Below, one piece after another: positions 10,422 through 43,807 of a stretch of DNA of 43,807 nt. Under the pieces are notes generated by a model. It made no database searches. It was not told where the DNA came from and saw only the letters and a list, made by a program, of their open reading frames with translations. Numbering within the stretch: the stretch's first letter is position 1; each line of letters begins with the position of its first letter. Origin of the DNA: Fragilaria crotonensis (lineage: Eukaryota; Bacillariophyta; Fragilariophyceae; Fragilariales; Fragilariaceae); assembly GCA_022925895.1 (NCBI GenBank), contig JAKSYS010000526.1:1-43807 (forward strand), in the 5' to 3' direction. A program made the translations under genes and the position numbers.

Positions 10422-10690
10422 TTCAGCAAATGTCAGCAGATTTCTTTTTCGTCAGCAAATGTCAGCAGATTTGCTTTTCGTCAGCAAATGTCAGCAAACT
10501 TGATTCTCGTCAGCAAACGTCAGAAGATGTCAGCATCACCGTAGCTTTTGTACTGGAAAAAACTCGTTTTCGTCATCATATGTCAGAAAATGTCAGCAGA
10601 TTCGAATTTCGTCAGCAGACGTCAGCAAATTCGTTTTTTGTCAGCGGATGTCAGCAGATCTGTCTTTTCGTCAGCAAGTGTCAGCAAAAC
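10422..10690. repeat. 29-30-bp tandem repeat containing GTCAGCAAATGTCAGCA
   Basis: The core GTCAGCAAATGTCAGCAGA (two GTCAGCA heptamers 10 bp apart) recurs near 10422, 10451, 10480 and 10509, spacing 29-30 bp. After an interruption at about 10520-10570 it resumes near 10582, 10611, 10640 and 10670, again 29-30 bp apart. The heptamers are separated by T-rich spacers such as TTTGCTTTTC. The spacers are similar to each other, so this is not a CRISPR array. It lies 0.4-0.7 kb upstream of the gene at 11102. Confidence 0.8.
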
Positions 10691-11101
10691 GACGATGACG
10701 CTGGCATAACCAGTTTAGCACCAGCCAGACACAGAACGGAAATGATTTTCGCCTCCGGCCAGCGTGAATTCGACCTTGATTCACGACTAAGCGTGTATTG
10801 CCGGACCTTCCTGGAGAACTCGTGCACTAGAGTAGCTACGGTAGTACCTGGTATTACTTGTAATATATAGAATAGGCGGAAGGCGGATGAGATATCTGGA
10901 ATGGAAATTCTCATTCCTATCTACTCTATGCATATACTGTACTCAAGTACAAGGTCGTGCAGTAGAATTGCATAAGTGCCCTACCATGGTACTCGTACGT
11001 ACGGTGCAATAGTCCAATTCATGAATGACTTGACATCTGACAATTTGTTCTCTGTCGTCAATTCTTTGAAAGAATAACTTCATTGCCTCGCCACTGCTAC
11101 C

Positions 11102-12468
11102 ATGGCAGATGCAGAGACTCTCGTTCAATCTGTTATCGACCTGCTTGATGTGCTGGTTGATCTGTATCTGGGGTCGTTGGTCAAACCCTTTCTTCGGTTT
11201 CACGATGAATTCTCTTCCGACGTGAACTCCATCCTCGATGACAACAAGGACAACATTCCTGATTGGCTTACTGGAAACGCCAGCGCCTACCTTCGAGTGT
11301 TTTTAGTATTTCCTACCATCCTTTTCCTTTCATGGGGTCAGCTCGTCATTCCTTTCTTGTTTGTGGTCATGGTCGATTTATTGGGCTTGCTGGGTTCTGT
11401 CGTTGCCAAATTTTGGGTAGATGCCAAGCGAGATCATGCCGAGGATGTAGTTAGGGAGGACGACCGTCCAACCAGTAAGTCTTTCACGCCCTCCGATGAT
11501 GATAGTATGGATAGTTACGAGTTCGGTGAGTTGATGTCCGGTATGTATGCAACGTACGTGTTAGTTGTCGCCCCTCATTTTTCTTCTTTATCTAGAGGTG
11601 GTAACAACTGGATCTCCTCAGCGGATGAAATCATGGAGTCTAACTCATCGATATCGATCACGCGCTGGGTTCCTGGATGCGGCCTGCGATAAGGCCTTCA
11701 TTATACCTTGTTGGATCTACCTTCTGTCGACAGTCCCGTCAGGGCAATATCGAACCATCAAATATGTTTCACTGTTTTGGTTAATCGTGACTGAGTTGGC
11801 CAATGGATGCCTTCAATTTAAGACCTTCTACGCAGGTAGTGGTGTCCCACAGGTTGAGGGTGATGTGTTTCCATTGAGTAGCATCAGCGTAAGTTGATCA
11901 TGTTTCGGAATGTCGACGGGTTTCTTCACTCGGAATGGTTTTGTCACTCATGATTTATTCGCAGCGTGAAAAGCTCAGCGCTTTGAAGCGAAGCTTTGAA
12001 ATGTTGGGGACTGCCTTGTTCATTTTGCCTTATTTCCGTTTTCTTGGTGTGACCTTGCTGCTATTGGCATGTCCCTTGGCCTATAAATCGTTTCGCCGAA
12101 AAACGAAAAAGAGAGTTATTTACGTTGTGTGCACGCAATCCGAGAAATTCGACTACAAAATCATTAAATTCTGGAGCCAGGCCAAAGCCCTGGGAACCAG
12201 GTTGGTTGTTGGTGTCGTCGGAAAAGGTCAGACGGACATGGTATGCAATGCGTGTGCCACAGCATGCGTCGATGAAGTTATTGCAGAGGCGCCCGCCAAG
12301 GCAGATTTGATGTTTCTAGAAAGGCAACGAATCGACTATGTTGTCTTCATGTCGAGCCAGACGAGTTTGGTCACAGACGAGGTCGTTGCCATGGGCGCCT
12401 GCTTGGTGTTGGGTGATGATCATGTGGTCCGACCGATGAAGCCAAAGGTGGATTCCAAGAAGTTGTAA
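11102..12468 (+). CDS. CDP-alcohol phosphotransferase-like / cytidylyltransferase-like fusion with degenerate motifs
   Basis: Exons 11102-11525, 11596-11888 and 11965-12468 join in phase to give 406 aa; introns are 70 and 76 bp. Residues ~63-100 and ~172-280 are membrane segments. The layout matches the CDP-alcohol phosphatidyltransferase family, whose motif is DxxDGxxAR...GxxxDxxxD. Here the first half reads GLLGSVVAK (95-103), so both aspartates and the glycine are lost and Arg is Lys. The second half keeps DAACD (169-173). Residues ~288-395 resemble the cytidylyltransferase fold (RVIYV, AKALGTRLVVGVV, CVDEVIAEAP, IDYVVF), but the HxGH site is missing (KFDYKII in its place). Both halves therefore look catalytically impaired. 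A role in membrane phospholipid metabolism or its regulation is inference. Confidence 0.75.
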
Positions 12469-12880
12469 GACATTCTCCAAGTGCTTTCGTCAACCTTGTT
12501 GCGGAGGCTTTTGCGTGTTTCTATTGTCTCTAGACGCAAACGACTGACTATATGCTACGTGACACGACAATTGTAAACCTGACATAGAGATTCATTCCCT
12601 GTAGCTGATGCATCGTAGCACAACAACAACAACAACTACAAACATATCTGTTTCGAAGAGCTGTGAACCTGCGGTTTTGGCAGATGCAGCCAGGGCAGTA
12701 TGCGTAGTGACGTCAATCAAGCGTTTCGTTCCTCCTTATTCAACAAGTAGTCGTTGATCGAGAACGCATATCTACGATCTCGCAATGAACGCTCACAAAA
12801 CAACCTCGCTGAAAGGTGGAGCTATCAGATTTGTTGTGCAAAGGATTTTGTATCTTTGTGAGCGCTTTTCAGCAATCTAC
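12469..12880. other. Convergent intergenic region
   Basis: This lies between the 3' ends of the fusion gene (+) and DXR (-). There is a short CAA run near 12617-12635 and a TGACGTCA palindrome near 12709. Its position downstream of both genes argues against a promoter role. GTAC palindromes are essentially absent, unlike regions at gene starts. Confidence 0.6.
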
Positions 12881-14370
12881 TTATACAATCAATAGCTTTG
12901 AATCAAGCTTTTGGATAGCAGACTCCACGTGTTGGCGAGCCCAAACATCGCACGCCAAAATATCATCAAGCGTGACACCGGTTGTCTTCAATTCATTCTT
13001 GTGAGCCTCCATTGCTCCTTCAATCAGTCGTGGAATGTCCAAGAAGCCAAGGCCAACATTGGCACGATACTTTTCATTAGCCGCTTCATTGGCTGCGTTA
13101 AGAACGGCAGTCATAGTGCCTCCTGCTCTTCCAGCTTCGTAGGCAAGTTCAATGCAAGGATACTTTTCCCGGTCAGGCTTCATGAAGGTCAATTTGCTAA
13201 GTTCGGCTAGATCAAGAGGTCTGTACGGCATCTTCAGCCGGTGTGGCCATGCAACAGAGTAAACAAGTGGTAACCTCATATCCGCCCATCCCAACTGAGC
13301 CAAACAAGACGTGTCCTGCGTCTCGATCATGGAGTGCACAATAGATTGTGGGTGAACGACAATATCAATGTCGTCGTAGCTAGCTCCGAACAAGTAGTGT
13401 GCCTCAATGACCTATATGGAGAGCAAGCCGGTGAGTTTGAGCAAGCAAAATGTCGTCAGAGTTGACAAAAATGGTGGCGCACCTCAAGGCCCTTGTTCAT
13501 CATCGTTGCACTGTCGAGCGTGATCTTGGCCCCCATATCCCAGTTAGGATGGGTCGTGGCCTTTGCTTGGACCGCTTTTGGGTCGTTTTGGCACATTGTG
13601 AAAAGCTCTTCTTTGCTCATGTCGCGGAATGCACCGCCGGACGCTGTGAGAATGATACGACGCAGCCCGCCTTCCGGCACTCCCTGGAGACATTGAAAGA
13701 TAGCACTGTGTTCCGAGTCGGCTGGAAGCATGTTGACACCGTATTCCTTAACCAGTGGATTAATGACTGGTCCTCCACTGATAAGCGTTTCCTTGTTGGC
13801 AAGAGCAATGTCCTTCCTGAGCTTGATCGCTTCAATTGTGGGTTTGAGTCCCGCCGATCCAACGATACCAGTAACAACAGTGTCAGCACTGTCGACAGTT
13901 GCGGCAGCAAGGATTCCTTCGTCGCCAAACATAATTTCTGGCATCTTTTGGCATCCAGCCGCCTTCAAGCGGTCTCTGAGTTCGTTGGCTGCTGCCTCCG
14001 TACTCATGGATGCAATCTTCGGGGCATATTTCATCACTTGCTCTGCCATGAGCGCAGCGTTGCTGCCAGCAGAAAGAGCATCGACAATAAAGTTGTTTGG
14101 ACATGCATCAACAATTTCCAGCGTTTGTGTACCGATGCTACCAGTGGATCCCAACAAGGACAATCGCTTTTGAAAATTCGCCCCCTCTAACGATTTGGCA
14201 AGTGTCTTTCTCATGGATGCCTCAGAGTTGACAGGAGCTGCTGGGTTCAGCAACCATCCTTCTCCAGTTCCCTTACTTCCAGAGATTGGAGCCACCAAGG
14301 CTCCAACTTCTCCGACACTCAAGGCGATCAAAACGCAGGTCGTTGTTTTGATCATTGTCATCGTCAACAT
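12881..14370 (-). CDS. DXR: 1-deoxy-D-xylulose 5-phosphate reductoisomerase, plastid-targeted
   Basis: Exons (minus) 14370-13483 and 13411-12881 give 472 aa; the 71-bp intron has a GTGCGC donor and ATATAG acceptor, and the join restores [17 protein letters not shown] converts DXP to MEP with NADPH and a divalent metal, the committed step of plastid isoprenoid synthesis. Visible motifs are the NADPH loop GSTGSIG (74-80), [67 protein letters not shown] and GWADMRLP; length fits the family plus a presequence. Residues 1-24 are a signal peptide ending near VGA/LVAP, followed by a Ser/Gly/Lys-containing linker: a bipartite leader suited to a secondary plastid, although the usual Phe after cleavage is Leu here. 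The gene is divergent from the 3-TM gene across a GTAC-rich spacer. Confidence 0.95.
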
Positions 14371-20179: not shown

Positions 20180-20262
20180 TCCTATCTATCGACTTACCCC
20201 CTGCAGTTGCCCTCCAAACTCTCTCAAGAACTGTGTTGCCGGGGTTAAGTCGATAGATAGGA
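20180..20262. repeat. Inverted repeat (21-22-bp arms, 40-bp loop) overlapping the transposase start codon
   Basis: The left arm (20180-20200) and right arm (20241-20262) are reverse complements over CCTATCTATCGACTTA plus a C/G run, with one base missing in the left arm. The last base of the right arm is the A of the ATG at 20262. As RNA this would form a strong hairpin ending at the start codon. As DNA it could be a transposase-binding site or two nested terminal repeats. No matching copy is seen just downstream of the ORF. Confidence 0.8.
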
Positions 20263-23200
20263 TGTCTGACAAAGGTAGATACTCTATCTTGACCGGTGCT
20301 ATCATGCTCATGCGATTGGACATCACGTACGGACCAAGATTATCAAATTGCTGGCTCCCAGCATCAACATTCGTTGAAGCATTAACCAAATTGAACCTCA
20401 TTGATGTTTCCCTCGCCATTGATGTGAGAAAGTTCAACAGCGCCATGTCCAAGTCCCCCTTGCTTGGAGAAGCAATCCATCAATTTGATGGATCCAATAT
20501 GACGGGTGTATTCAGAATTACGTTTCAAAAGACCTTCTTTTACTATTTCACTGAAGAATCAAGGCAGGTTCGGTACCCATTTCCCCTTAACAGTGCATGG
20601 AGGGACAAGGTAATGGAAGCAGCATCAAATGTGCTAGTCGTTCCAAGTACTAGATCGTGCAGAGCTGCTCCTGATATGACGACTACAACTGCTACCGACA
20701 TCGGACAAAACACTGAAGGGCAAGATGCAGAATCTCCAAACAAACGGCCGAGGGTAGGGGATCAAGATGCTGAGCTGCTTGTTGATTCTACTTCGGTTGG
20801 TCTACTATCAGGCTCGTACTGGCCCTGCAGTCCTGAGGCATATCAACTGTTCAAACCGAAGAAAACATGTACTCGGCTTAACGACAACTGCGAAATTGAC
20901 TGCGTTGATGATCTGGATTCTGAAACTCCAATGGAAGCGGTCCAGAGGCGAATCCTGTTGCTTCAAAGTGTTCACGAGAGGGAAGATAATTGGAGAAACG
21001 TTGTAGTTGGTCGCGATGATAACGATGTATGCACCAAGGCCGAGATCTGGGAAATTCGGCAACGAGCAACATTTCTTTGCTATGCCTACCAGTTGGCGCT
21101 CGAAAAAATGAATGAGTGGACGTGGCAAGACTGTTGTTCAAGCGCTTGTCAGCTTTTGAATTCCTTCGGGATGAAGCAAGCAAGCTTCTATAAAACAGTA
21201 TCGAATTGGAACATTGCATTCAGGAAGTACGAAAGCTTCCCGCACCCAAATCTGTCGGTTCAGTGTGGAAAGCAACCACTCCCTCGACTTCTCGAAGTGT
21301 ATCCCTGTGCAAAGGAGCAGATTGTTTCATTCGGTTTGAAGAACTTAGCGCATCTATCAATTGAAGCAGTGTATCAGTTCATTCTTTCGACAGTTGTCCC
21401 GAGACTTGCAGCTTTGTGGATAAAGGAATCACATGACGATGCTGCTACTACTAGTAGTACACCATCTAGTAGCAACAACTCTACCACCGGTGCAAATGAA
21501 GACAATGATGTGGTTTCCTTATTTCTTCGTGCACATAGACTTAAGAAATTTAGCTTCTCAACATCGTGGCGATGGATGCGACTGCTAGGCTTCGACTACA
21601 ACAATCGAAGAAAAAGCTATTATGTCGACGGCCACGAACGCGAGGATGTTGTGGCACATCGACACTCGTTCTGCAAGAATTACCTTACCATGCTTGAACC
21701 CTATTGTCGGCGCTGGATACAGGTTCCTCTGAGTGAAGCTGCAACGATGAAAACATTGGATGCGGATATTGGACACCACTATTTTGATATTATATCTAAC
21801 GAATCACGCGTTGAGTTTCACGTTGACTACTGGCGAAGCTGCCTTGCAAGACTCAAGGCTTCAGAAGAGACACTGCCACATCGGGAAATTGAAGCAACAA
21901 CCAGCATTCGAAAACCAACGTCAGTAAGGCCACTCATGATAATTGGTCAAGACGAATCAGTCTTTTCGCAATACCTCATGTCGTCGAAACAATGGATGGG
22001 ACCGAGGGGACAGGTGGCACTATTGCCGAAGTCTGAGGGTGACGGGTACATGCTTTCTGCATTTGTATCCCGTGAGTTTGGATTTGGAAGACAGATGACA
22101 GAAGACGAGTTAGCAGAAGTCAATATGAGAAGGCAAACGACAGCACTTGGTAGCGGGACTTACCGAGACACGATTGCGGCAATGGAAATATTGGGAACAA
22201 CAAGGAAACCCACTTTAAAAGAATCGCCGTTTGTAAAATCCTTGTTCATTGGTATCAACAATGAAGGATATTGGAACTCATATCATATGAGCTTACAGTT
22301 TGAGGATGTCATCGATTGCGTACGAGTTTTGTACCCCACCTTCGATTTCGTGTTCCTATTCGATCATTCTCAAGGCCATGCTCGCAGACGCGACGGCGCA
22401 CTCAATGCCCTCAGCATGTCAAAGAACTTTGGAGGAGCAGGAGCACAGCAACAAATGAGAGACACGTGCATAGCATCACAAGAGGGTTATCTCGGTTCAC
22501 ACTCACCGTCACTGTCTGTTGGCGATGTCCAATCAATGGTCTTCAAAAATGACGATGACGGCCCTTGGTACTTATCACCAGAGCAAAGGGAATTACAACG
22601 GTATGATAGAACCACAGGGAAAAGTAAGATGGTTGAGAAGACGAAGAAGATACTTCTCCAAGAACTCAATGATAGGGGTGTGACGCTCCAACAGAAACGG
22701 GGATACACGAAAGCAGAGCTCCAGGGATTGGCGAGAGAAAACGGAATTGAGACCGCCAATCAGGTTGACAAACTCCTACCAGGGTGGCAAGGAAAAGCTA
22801 AAGGTCTACTACAAGTTCTGCACGAAAGAGGTCTGTTAGATCCATCGATTTCAGACAAGTACACATTGGAAGGGAAGAAAGATGTCATTTCGGGAAAGTT
22901 TGACTTACAGTTATCGCTTCGCAGAATAATGTCTGAATGTTCGGATTTCAAGAATGAACAGACTGCCCTGCAGCATCTGGGATCACAGCTTGGAGTGCAG
23001 GTGCTTCTGACTCCAAAGTTTCACGCCGAATTGGCTGGGGAAGGCGTTGAATTTAGTTGGGGACACGCGAAGGCATTCTACCGGCGTATTCCTCTTTCTA
23101 AAAAGCGGGGACGAGAGAATTTTAAACAATGTGTGAGAGATTCAACTTGTCCCATCAATGAGTTGACTCAAGGAAGAATGGAAAAGTTTGCAGCACGAGC

Positions 23201-23456
23201 ACGCGCTTATATTTGTACTTACCACCATATATATCAGCAGTCTCAACAGAGAAGGCAACAGGATCATGCAAACGCAAGCATCCCTGCATTTTCAACGTCA
23301 TGTGACGATCCCGTGCTTCTGTCGTACTCAGACATCCAACATGTTTCGAAGCAATTCAAGACACACAGATGTGTCTTGGACTTTGATACTGGCTTCATCT
23401 ATGGTTCACTGAAAGAGGCAAAGCCTTGGAAGGATCATGATGTTGATGCTTCGTGA
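20262..23456 (+). CDS. Large DDE transposase-like protein (IS630/Tc1/mariner-related), intact
   Basis: A single uninterrupted ORF encodes 1064 aa from the ATG at 20262. The catalytic triad is readable: D564 in IIGQDESVF, D701 in FLFDHSQGH and E930 in EGVEFSWGHAK, where Tc1-like enzymes have NPIExxW. The order and context (RWMRLLGFDYNNRRKSYYVDGHERxDVVAHR upstream, QMRDTC after D701, LTPKFHAEL before E930) match a large family I recall from fungal and protist genomes. The D701-E930 spacing (228 residues) includes an insertion with SAP-like helices (KRGYTKAELQGLARENGI). The N-terminal ~450 residues lack recognised motifs. No terminal inverted repeats or target duplication could be found by eye, so it may be an immobile or domesticated copy. 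Confidence 0.85.
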   Translation: MSDKGRYSILTGAIMLMRLDITYGPRLSNCWLPASTFVEALTKLNLIDVSLAIDVRKFNSAMSKSPLLGEAIHQFDGSNMTGVFRITFQKTFFYYFTEESRQVRYPFPLNSAWRDKVMEAASNVLVVPSTRSCRAAPDMTTTTATDIGQNTEGQDAESPNKRPRVGDQDAELLVDSTSVGLLSGSYWPCSPEAYQLFKPKKTCTRLNDNCEIDCVDDLDSETPMEAVQRRILLLQSVHEREDNWRNVVVGRDDNDVCTKAEIWEIRQRATFLCYAYQLALEKMNEWTWQDCCSSACQLLNSFGMKQASFYKTVSNWNIAFRKYESFPHPNLSVQCGKQPLPRLLEVYPCAKEQIVSFGLKNLAHLSIEAVYQFILSTVVPRLAALWIKESHDDAATTSSTPSSSNNSTTGANEDNDVVSLFLRAHRLKKFSFSTSWRWMRLLGFDYNNRRKSYYVDGHEREDVVAHRHSFCKNYLTMLEPYCRRWIQVPLSEAATMKTLDADIGHHYFDIISNESRVEFHVDYWRSCLARLKASEETLPHREIEATTSIRKPTSVRPLMIIGQDESVFSQYLMSSKQWMGPRGQVALLPKSEGDGYMLSAFVSREFGFGRQMTEDELAEVNMRRQTTALGSGTYRDTIAAMEILGTTRKPTLKESPFVKSLFIGINNEGYWNSYHMSLQFEDVIDCVRVLYPTFDFVFLFDHSQGHARRRDGALNALSMSKNFGGAGAQQQMRDTCIASQEGYLGSHSPSLSVGDVQSMVFKNDDDGPWYLSPEQRELQRYDRTTGKSKMVEKTKKILLQELNDRGVTLQQKRGYTKAELQGLARENGIETANQVDKLLPGWQGKAKGLLQVLHERGLLDPSISDKYTLEGKKDVISGKFDLQLSLRRIMSECSDFKNEQTALQHLGSQLGVQVLLTPKFHAELAGEGVEFSWGHAKAFYRRIPLSKKRGRENFKQCVRDSTCPINELTQGRMEKFAARARAYICTYHHIYQQSQQRRQQDHANASIPAFSTSCDDPVLLSYSDIQHVSKQFKTHRCVLDFDTGFIYGSLKEAKPWKDHDVDAS

Positions 23457-42640: not shown

Positions 42641-43807
42641 TTACCAACCCAAAATGGCGAGGCGCAAACGGGAGAAAAGGGTCGTTGGCAATGGCTTGGT
42701 GTAGATGTCCGCTTCCTGGTTTGCAGAAGTGACGGGATAGAGCGAGATCTCGCCCCTCGCAACGTGATCACGAAAGTGGTGGTATTTGACATTCAAATGC
42801 TTGGTGCGGGGACGCATTTTGGGAACTTGAGCCATAGTTAGCGCACCACTGTTGTCTTCGAAGACTTTGCAATGGATTCTCGGATTGGTAGCGACATTTG
42901 GGATGCCGTGTCTCTGAGCTTCCTTCAAAAGTTCCATGAGGCATATGACCTCCCTCAAAGCGGATGACAACGCAACGTATTCGGCTTCTGTGGTGCTTAG
43001 GGCGGTTTCAGTTTGAAGTTTGGATTGCCACACGATTGGGCAACCCGCGTACTTGATGACGTAGCCAGTTCGGGATTTCGATGTGCTTGAATCTCCCTCA
43101 GCGGTATCTGGGTTCCAAGTGCCACAGAAATCGGCATCCACGTAGCAGTCGAAAGAGGCAGTTGTCGGGTTTAGAATAATGCCCTTGTCTTTGGTTCCCA
43201 CAAGGTAGCGCCCAATATGTCGGATTGCTTCTGCGTGCGAGTGTTTTGGATTCGCTGAGAAACGTGCGCACTGGTGGACGGCGTATGACAAATCGCCTCG
43301 AGTGGATTTTTCCAAGAAGTTCAACTTGCCGACGACAGACCGATATGCCCATTCTTCTTCAAAATCAGGACCATCCGTGTCTCTGTGCAGGATGGTGGTT
43401 GACGGGGCTGGCGTGCGTTTAGGCTTGGTGTTGTCTTTGAAGCCGATGTCATTGAGAATCTGTTGGATCAAGTGTGGCTGTGACAAACGCATGCGGCCTC
43501 CCTCAAGGTGGTCGATCTTGACACCCAAATAATCACTTAGTGTCCCTTCGTCCGTGATGTCGTAGGAAGTTGTGTAGTTGGTGTCTCTTTTAAGTGACAA
43601 AATCAAATCGTCAATCTCTTTGGCGTCGGGTCCAATGAAAATTCCATCGTCAACGTACAAGAGAAAAACAGTATTGCCCTTGTAGTACACGCAGTGATCG
43701 ACCGAGCTCTGGCGATATCCGCGTTCAATTAAGCCAGTATGTATATGCTTGTTCCAAACGCGACCTGCTGACGAGTGCCATATATGTTCTTGAGTAGCTG
43801 AAGGACA
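42641..43807 (-). mobile_element. pol: Ty1/copia retrotransposon, reverse transcriptase/RNase H end (partial, frameshifted)
   Basis: The minus-strand ORF ending at 42641 covers at least 349 residues and continues upstream to about 43765. It shows the reverse transcriptase box LLYVDDGIFIG, then SDYLGVKIDHLEGG, the FLEKSTRGDLSYAVHQCARF region, and RNase H features DCYVDADFCGTW, STTEAEYVALSSALREV, EDNSGALTMAQ, RTKHLNVKYHHFRD and EADIYTKPL. The order RT-RNase H with an LTR candidate just downstream is that of Ty1/copia. The rest of the element runs off the window. Near 43762-43770 the coding frame switches: the upstream part of the conserved RT segment is in one frame and the downstream part in another, offset by a single missing base. 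The copy is therefore probably inactive unless this is a sequencing error. Confidence 0.92.

Follow-up and report, generated by a model that had tools for sequence, protein, structure and literature searches.

Fusions of a CDP-alcohol phosphotransferase to a cytidylyltransferase-like domain have been described in Archaeoglobus fulgidus, as reported for Af2299 and the AfDIPP synthase in two papers (PMC4634129, PMC8633023), and the extra domain is named the IPTC (nucleotidyl transferase) domain in one of them (PMC8633023). The phosphotransferase family presents the signature D1xxD2G1xxAR...G2xxxD3xxxD4 together with a P(D/N)xx(T/S) motif at the start of TM1, and in PIP synthase and its relatives D1-D3 bind the metal while D4 is the likely base, according to PMC4634129. 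For the cytidylyltransferases of the CCT/ECT class, HxGH and RTEG(I/V)ST(S/T) are given as the signature sequences in PMC6060094.

The window analysed here, i.e. the whole stretch of 43,807 nt, contains on its plus strand a gene that runs from an ATG at 11102 to a stop codon ending at 12468, exactly as proposed in the preliminary description. Its three exons (11102-11525, 11596-11888 and 11965-12468) are separated by two GT-AG introns of 70 bp (11526-11595) and 76 bp (11889-11964), with splice sites picked by inspection, and the spliced product comprises 406 aa in an intact frame. Exon 1 encodes the N-terminal segment, TM1, TM2 and the start of an inserted loop, exon 2 the end of the loop, TM3 and TM4, and exon 3 TM5, TM6, the cytidylyltransferase-like domain and the stop codon. 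A codon-usage score was trained on seven ORFs elsewhere in the window and expressed per codon. It gave 0.113, 0.026 (weak) and 0.107 for exons 1, 2 and 3, respectively, in the frame of the spliced product, and values below zero for both alternative forward frames of each exon; one frame of intron 2 reached 0.049. The whole coding sequence scored 0.097, inside the range of 0.058-0.165 that the score gives for its own training ORFs, and the gene structure is real. The loss of catalytic residues in both halves of the protein, described below, would be expected if the gene were the decayed copy of a bifunctional enzyme and had no function left. However, the intact frame over three exons, the canonical introns and coding statistics that fall among those of other ORFs in the window argue against decay, and so deep a divergence without a stop would be unlikely to arise neutrally; we consider this reading improbable.

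The C-terminal 122 residues (residues 285-406; 12100-12465, plus strand) have the Rossmann-type alpha/beta fold and the sequence pattern of the CCT/ECT/GCT cytidylyltransferases, with the catalytic motifs lost. The domain was not recognised by Pfam, NCBIfam or phmmer against PDB, and PF01467 itself gave no score; library searches with either domain at E<=10 returned nothing or chance rows only, among them RAI1 (E 0.17), CurK (E 1.1) and a dehydrogenase (E 2.5), which were dismissed as such. Purpose-built profiles were made from human PCYT2 (both domains), mammalian CCT, P. falciparum CCT and TagD, and a mixed CCT/ECT/GCT profile was obtained by adding four divergent bacterial or viral members to this five-sequence set. 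Two collinear segments of the domain (domain residues 22-40 and 55-83) together gave 22.6 bits with the mixed profile, and the score with the five-sequence profile was 19.2 bits, values equalled by none of 10,000 shuffles in either case, while the 13.5 bits obtained with a TagD-derived bacterial profile were equalled by one in 10,000. Compared with 205 E. coli ORFs, it came out on top on both profiles that include eukaryotic sequences, and on the bacterial profile only PanC scored higher. Using hhalign, a probability of 94.7 % and an E value of 6.1e-8 were obtained over 68 columns, with 31 % identity to PCYT2 domain 1, and two kinds of shuffle, 200 of each, stayed far below the score of 47.8 (top 20.4). 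Pairwise comparisons gave the highest z value for P. falciparum CCT (10.1), followed by mammalian CCT (7.7) and the two PCYT2 domains (5.2 and 2.4), with TagD at 2.7 and the four divergent bacterial or viral members at 1.4-3.5.

We also modelled the domain. AlphaFold on the domain alone gave a pLDDT of 41.5. When whole TagD proteins were first aligned with the domain, the VDEVI of the query fell opposite DEFN, contrary to hhalign, and several trimmings were made, the TagD rows being cut twice until the VDEV stretches matched up. The second model, based on the resulting alignment of 16 trimmed TagD rows, a trimming that leans towards the fold under test, reached a pLDDT of 69.4 and a pTM of 0.65. 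Foldseek against PDB with this model returned 43 matches at E<=0.001, of which 35 were P. falciparum CCT chains, seven mammalian CCT chains and one HldC, and unrelated proteins only started past them, at E 5.5e-3. Against CCT, the TM-scores normalised by query length were modest, at 0.51-0.65, with an rmsd of 3.2-4.8. The model is not fully circular, since its closest matches were CCTs while TagD (1coz), the family supplied to it, only ranked 50th (E 9.7e-3), and since strand and helix were also predicted outside the supplied block, with moderate confidence (pLDDT of the blocks 75, 65 and 57). The cytidylyltransferase fold proposed in the preliminary description thus stands far above chance in the profile, hhalign and shuffle comparisons, and Foldseek on the alignment-biased model also leads to CCTs.

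The catalytic motifs of this domain are lost. At the position of HxGH the protein presents DYKI (residues 302-305; 12151-12162, plus strand), which hhalign aligns with HYGH of human PCYT2, in agreement with the earlier proposal that this site was missing while the fold pattern was kept. The C-terminal end of the protein lacks RTEG(I/V)ST. A conserved loop is shortened, as is the region in which the ER motif is normally found; depending on where gaps are placed, a KG dipeptide may correspond to the KG of CCT.

In the membrane half, the TM1 nucleotide-recognition motif is kept as PDWLT (residues 53-57; 11258-11272, plus strand). The position of D1xxD2G1xxAR is occupied by GLLGSVVAK (residues 95-103; 11384-11410, plus strand), in a register set by eye that places AK-FW opposite AR-RW of E. 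coli PgsA; D1, D2 and G1 are lost, A is kept and R is replaced by K. It is followed by the inserted loop (residues 106-163; 11417-11660, plus strand), split by intron 1, so that 61 residues lie between the positions of R and G2 as compared with eight in E. coli PgsA (~53 inserted), and then by FLDAACDK (residues 167-174; 11670-11693, plus strand), in which D3xxxD4 is kept, including the catalytic-base position, and G2 is replaced by Ala. Three of the eight signature residues (A, D3 and D4) are therefore retained. Both features that had been pointed out at the outset, GLLGSVVAK where DxxDGxxAR was expected and a preserved DxxxD half, are present in the spliced protein. Hydropathy runs were found at residues 4-33, 56-109, 166-189, 196-216 and 249-283; by splitting two of them, and leaving 4-33 aside, the protein probably has six helices.

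The missing motifs were also sought in alternative reading frames and splice forms. D..D[GA]..[AGS][RK] and DG..A[RK] were absent from the six unspliced frames of 11000-12600, in which HTGH occurred once, in antisense, at 11545. When single GT-AG segments of 30-600 bp were removed, none of the 2,629 cases generated D..DG..A[RK] at the junction, confirming the reported loss of DxxDGxxAR, the first half of the signature, with respect to any single alternative splice junction. HxGH arose at the junction in three of these removals by chance, with large coding parts deleted each time.

Searches of Pfam, NCBIfam and PDB sequences gave no match for the membrane half. Its HMMER local score against our own profiles was reached by 44 and 51 of 2,000 shuffles, and its hhalign local score by eight of 200 shuffles with the loop removed and by six and 11 of 200 when the loop was retained. 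On the CDP-alcohol profile it ranked third against the E. coli ORFs (2.7 bits, E 1.7), and when the window was scanned with this profile the frame of exon 2 (5.6 bits, E 0.3) was preceded by an antisense frame (5.7 bits). These results would be expected if only the C-terminal domain were what it seems and the membrane half were an unrelated multi-helix protein carrying PDxxT and LDxxxD by chance, given that none of the three libraries gave a match and that the local profile scores fall in the shuffle range and do not exceed those of E. coli ORFs or of an antisense frame in the window. The absence of five of the eight signature residues and the splitting of the motif by ~53 extra residues are also consistent with such a protein.

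In contrast, global hhalign alignment with the loop removed gave a score of 18.4, with a probability of only 6.6 %, that was reached by none of 200 hydropathy-preserving shuffles (top 16.3). A strict paired pattern written after the sequence was seen, N[IL]P[DN]x[LIM][TS] followed by LDxxxD[KRS], also argues against an unrelated protein, as it occurred in none of 100,000 shuffles, none of the 205 E. coli ORFs and three of 1,572 ORFs from other loci, all three of which match the CDP-alcohol profile. A looser pair, which rests on the published motifs, was found in 481 of 100,000 shuffles, as chance occurrence would allow, and in 24 of the 1,572 locus ORFs; however, 23 of these 24 are CDP-alcohol phosphotransferases by profile, with 49 profile matches among the 1,572. 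Moreover, a CDP-alcohol phosphotransferase is a natural partner of a fused cytidylyltransferase fold. We regard an unrelated membrane half as rather unlikely and descent from the CDP-alcohol phosphotransferases as probable, the evidence for common descent being moderate. The CDP-alcohol phosphotransferase-like membrane domain put forward in the preliminary description is therefore retained in part: the paired motifs and the global alignment agree with it, while no library profile does and the local scores are at chance level. By eye, NIPDWLT...FLDAACDK is closer in appearance to the PGP/cardiolipin-synthase type than to the choline/ethanolamine phosphotransferases. With the assignment of the membrane half no more than probable and its motifs nearer to that type by eye, the further claim that the protein joins two activities acting in sequence is weakened.

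Our best explanation, in which we have moderate confidence, is a fusion of two folds with both active sites broken, which would serve without catalysis as a scaffold in the membrane or as a regulatory subunit. The protein would consist of a multi-helix, probably six-helix, membrane part derived from a CDP-alcohol phosphotransferase and a C-terminal domain that goes back to a CCT/ECT-type cytidylyltransferase. Neither active site looks intact, the first having no metal-binding D1/D2 pair and the second no HxGH or RTEGIST, and because D1/D2 and HxGH are missing neither reaction should run by the published mechanisms, so the fusion protein most likely makes neither CDP-alcohol nor phospholipid. 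The same losses favour a non-catalytic scaffold or sensor. It might, for example, pair with an active phosphotransferase, solved members being homodimers, while the degenerate C-terminal domain, with its core fold kept and perhaps weak nucleotide binding, could recruit or sense an active cytidylyltransferase or CDP-alcohol. We infer the loss of catalysis, the dimer partner and the regulatory role from the sequence, and reading the protein as a double pseudoenzyme appears reasonable on these grounds. An active enzyme with changed chemistry, whose membrane half or C-terminal domain uses other residues, would explain why D3, D4, PDxxT and the cytidylyltransferase core were retained, and the KG dipeptide could be counted in its favour where gap placement aligns it with that of CCT; however, HxGH, RTEGIST, D1, D2, G1 and R have all been lost or exchanged, and the mechanism published in PMC4634129 uses D1-D3 for the metal, which makes changed chemistry improbable.

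A functional pseudoenzyme is recognised above all by its conservation. To our knowledge, pseudoenzymes among the CDP-alcohol phosphotransferases have been little described. No paralogue was detected within the window by tblastn (other rows only at E 7.6 and 8.3), nor any second match to the cytidylyltransferase profile below E 1 in the window. Scans of viral_contigs, genome_contigs and phages, which reach close relatives and include few or no eukaryotes, returned no relatives. ECT, EPT and PGPS appear in the lipid-enzyme list of a P. tricornutum paper, and EPT and PGPS in that of a diatom paper; since these enzymes are listed there, ordinary ECT/EPT/PGPS-type enzymes probably exist elsewhere in the genome if the DNA comes from such an alga. 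Two degenerate lipid-synthesis folds in one chain lie below the Pfam detection limit, and standard annotation finds nothing; if conserved, the protein would be a concrete candidate for algal control of phospholipid synthesis or for channelling of CDP-alcohols.

With respect to the surroundings, a convergent DXR gene (Pfam DXP_reductoisom, 1.8e-41) adjoins the fusion gene, and the 3' part of this neighbouring gene is probably carried by an additional exon inside the ORF 12881-13393. Together with the short introns, this neighbour gives the window the look of DNA from a diatom or a similar alga. A 29-bp tandem repeat forms two short arrays, at 10423-10528 (3.7 copies) and 10582-10686 (3.6 copies), ~415-680 bp upstream of the fusion gene. 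Elsewhere in the window, an ORF of 1064 residues at 20262-23456 (plus strand) matched no Pfam family at E<=0.001, and a Copia-type reverse transcriptase fragment was found at 42641-43690 (minus strand; Pfam RVT_2, 7.1e-7, 29.5 bits, with a cut-off of 31.6). Separately, the TagD-like genes of two IMG/VR contigs (L002:1001-1375 and L003:1001-1378) each contain two in-frame stops under table 11, perhaps a recoded stop.

When compared with known systems, the membrane half shares the NIPxxLT start and LDxxxDK with E. coli PgsA, of the PgsA/cardiolipin-synthase type (PF01066), while the fusion protein differs from this type in lacking the DxxDGxxAR half and in having a long insertion and an extra C-terminal domain. 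The C-terminal domain shares its fold with CCT and ECT (PF01467), to which it shows its best pairwise similarity, although the fusion protein lacks HxGH, RTEGIST and some of the loop that precedes the conserved VDEV strand. We know of no CCT or ECT that is fused to a membrane enzyme. In Plasmodium ECT one of the two cytidylyltransferase domains is reportedly inactive; as probably in our protein, a dead cytidylyltransferase domain is retained in a larger lipid-synthesis protein, so that by analogy it is a precedent for such retention, although its partner domain is an active cytidylyltransferase.

The closest architecture is that of Af2299 and the AfDIPP synthase, which also combine a six-helix CDP-alcohol phosphotransferase with a cytosolic cytidylyltransferase-like domain. 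These proteins come from an archaeon and carry the extra domain at the N terminus, whereas here it is C-terminal, and the membrane half of Af2299 is described as binding metal and CDP-glycerol. We take the IPTC domain to have a different fold from the C-terminal domain studied here. A literature search returned no eukaryotic fusion of this kind among the matches listed, in the text available for them, and none of the 1,572 ORFs (loci L001-L163, with short flanks and picked without regard to fusions) matched both profiles at E<=1e-3. As a tentative possibility, a eukaryotic lineage may keep, under selection, a doubly dead fused pair of the CDP pathway as a membrane-bound sensor or assembly platform, which would make it the pseudoenzyme counterpart of the archaeal fusions. 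The fusion of these two domain types is already known from archaea, while the variant found here is new.
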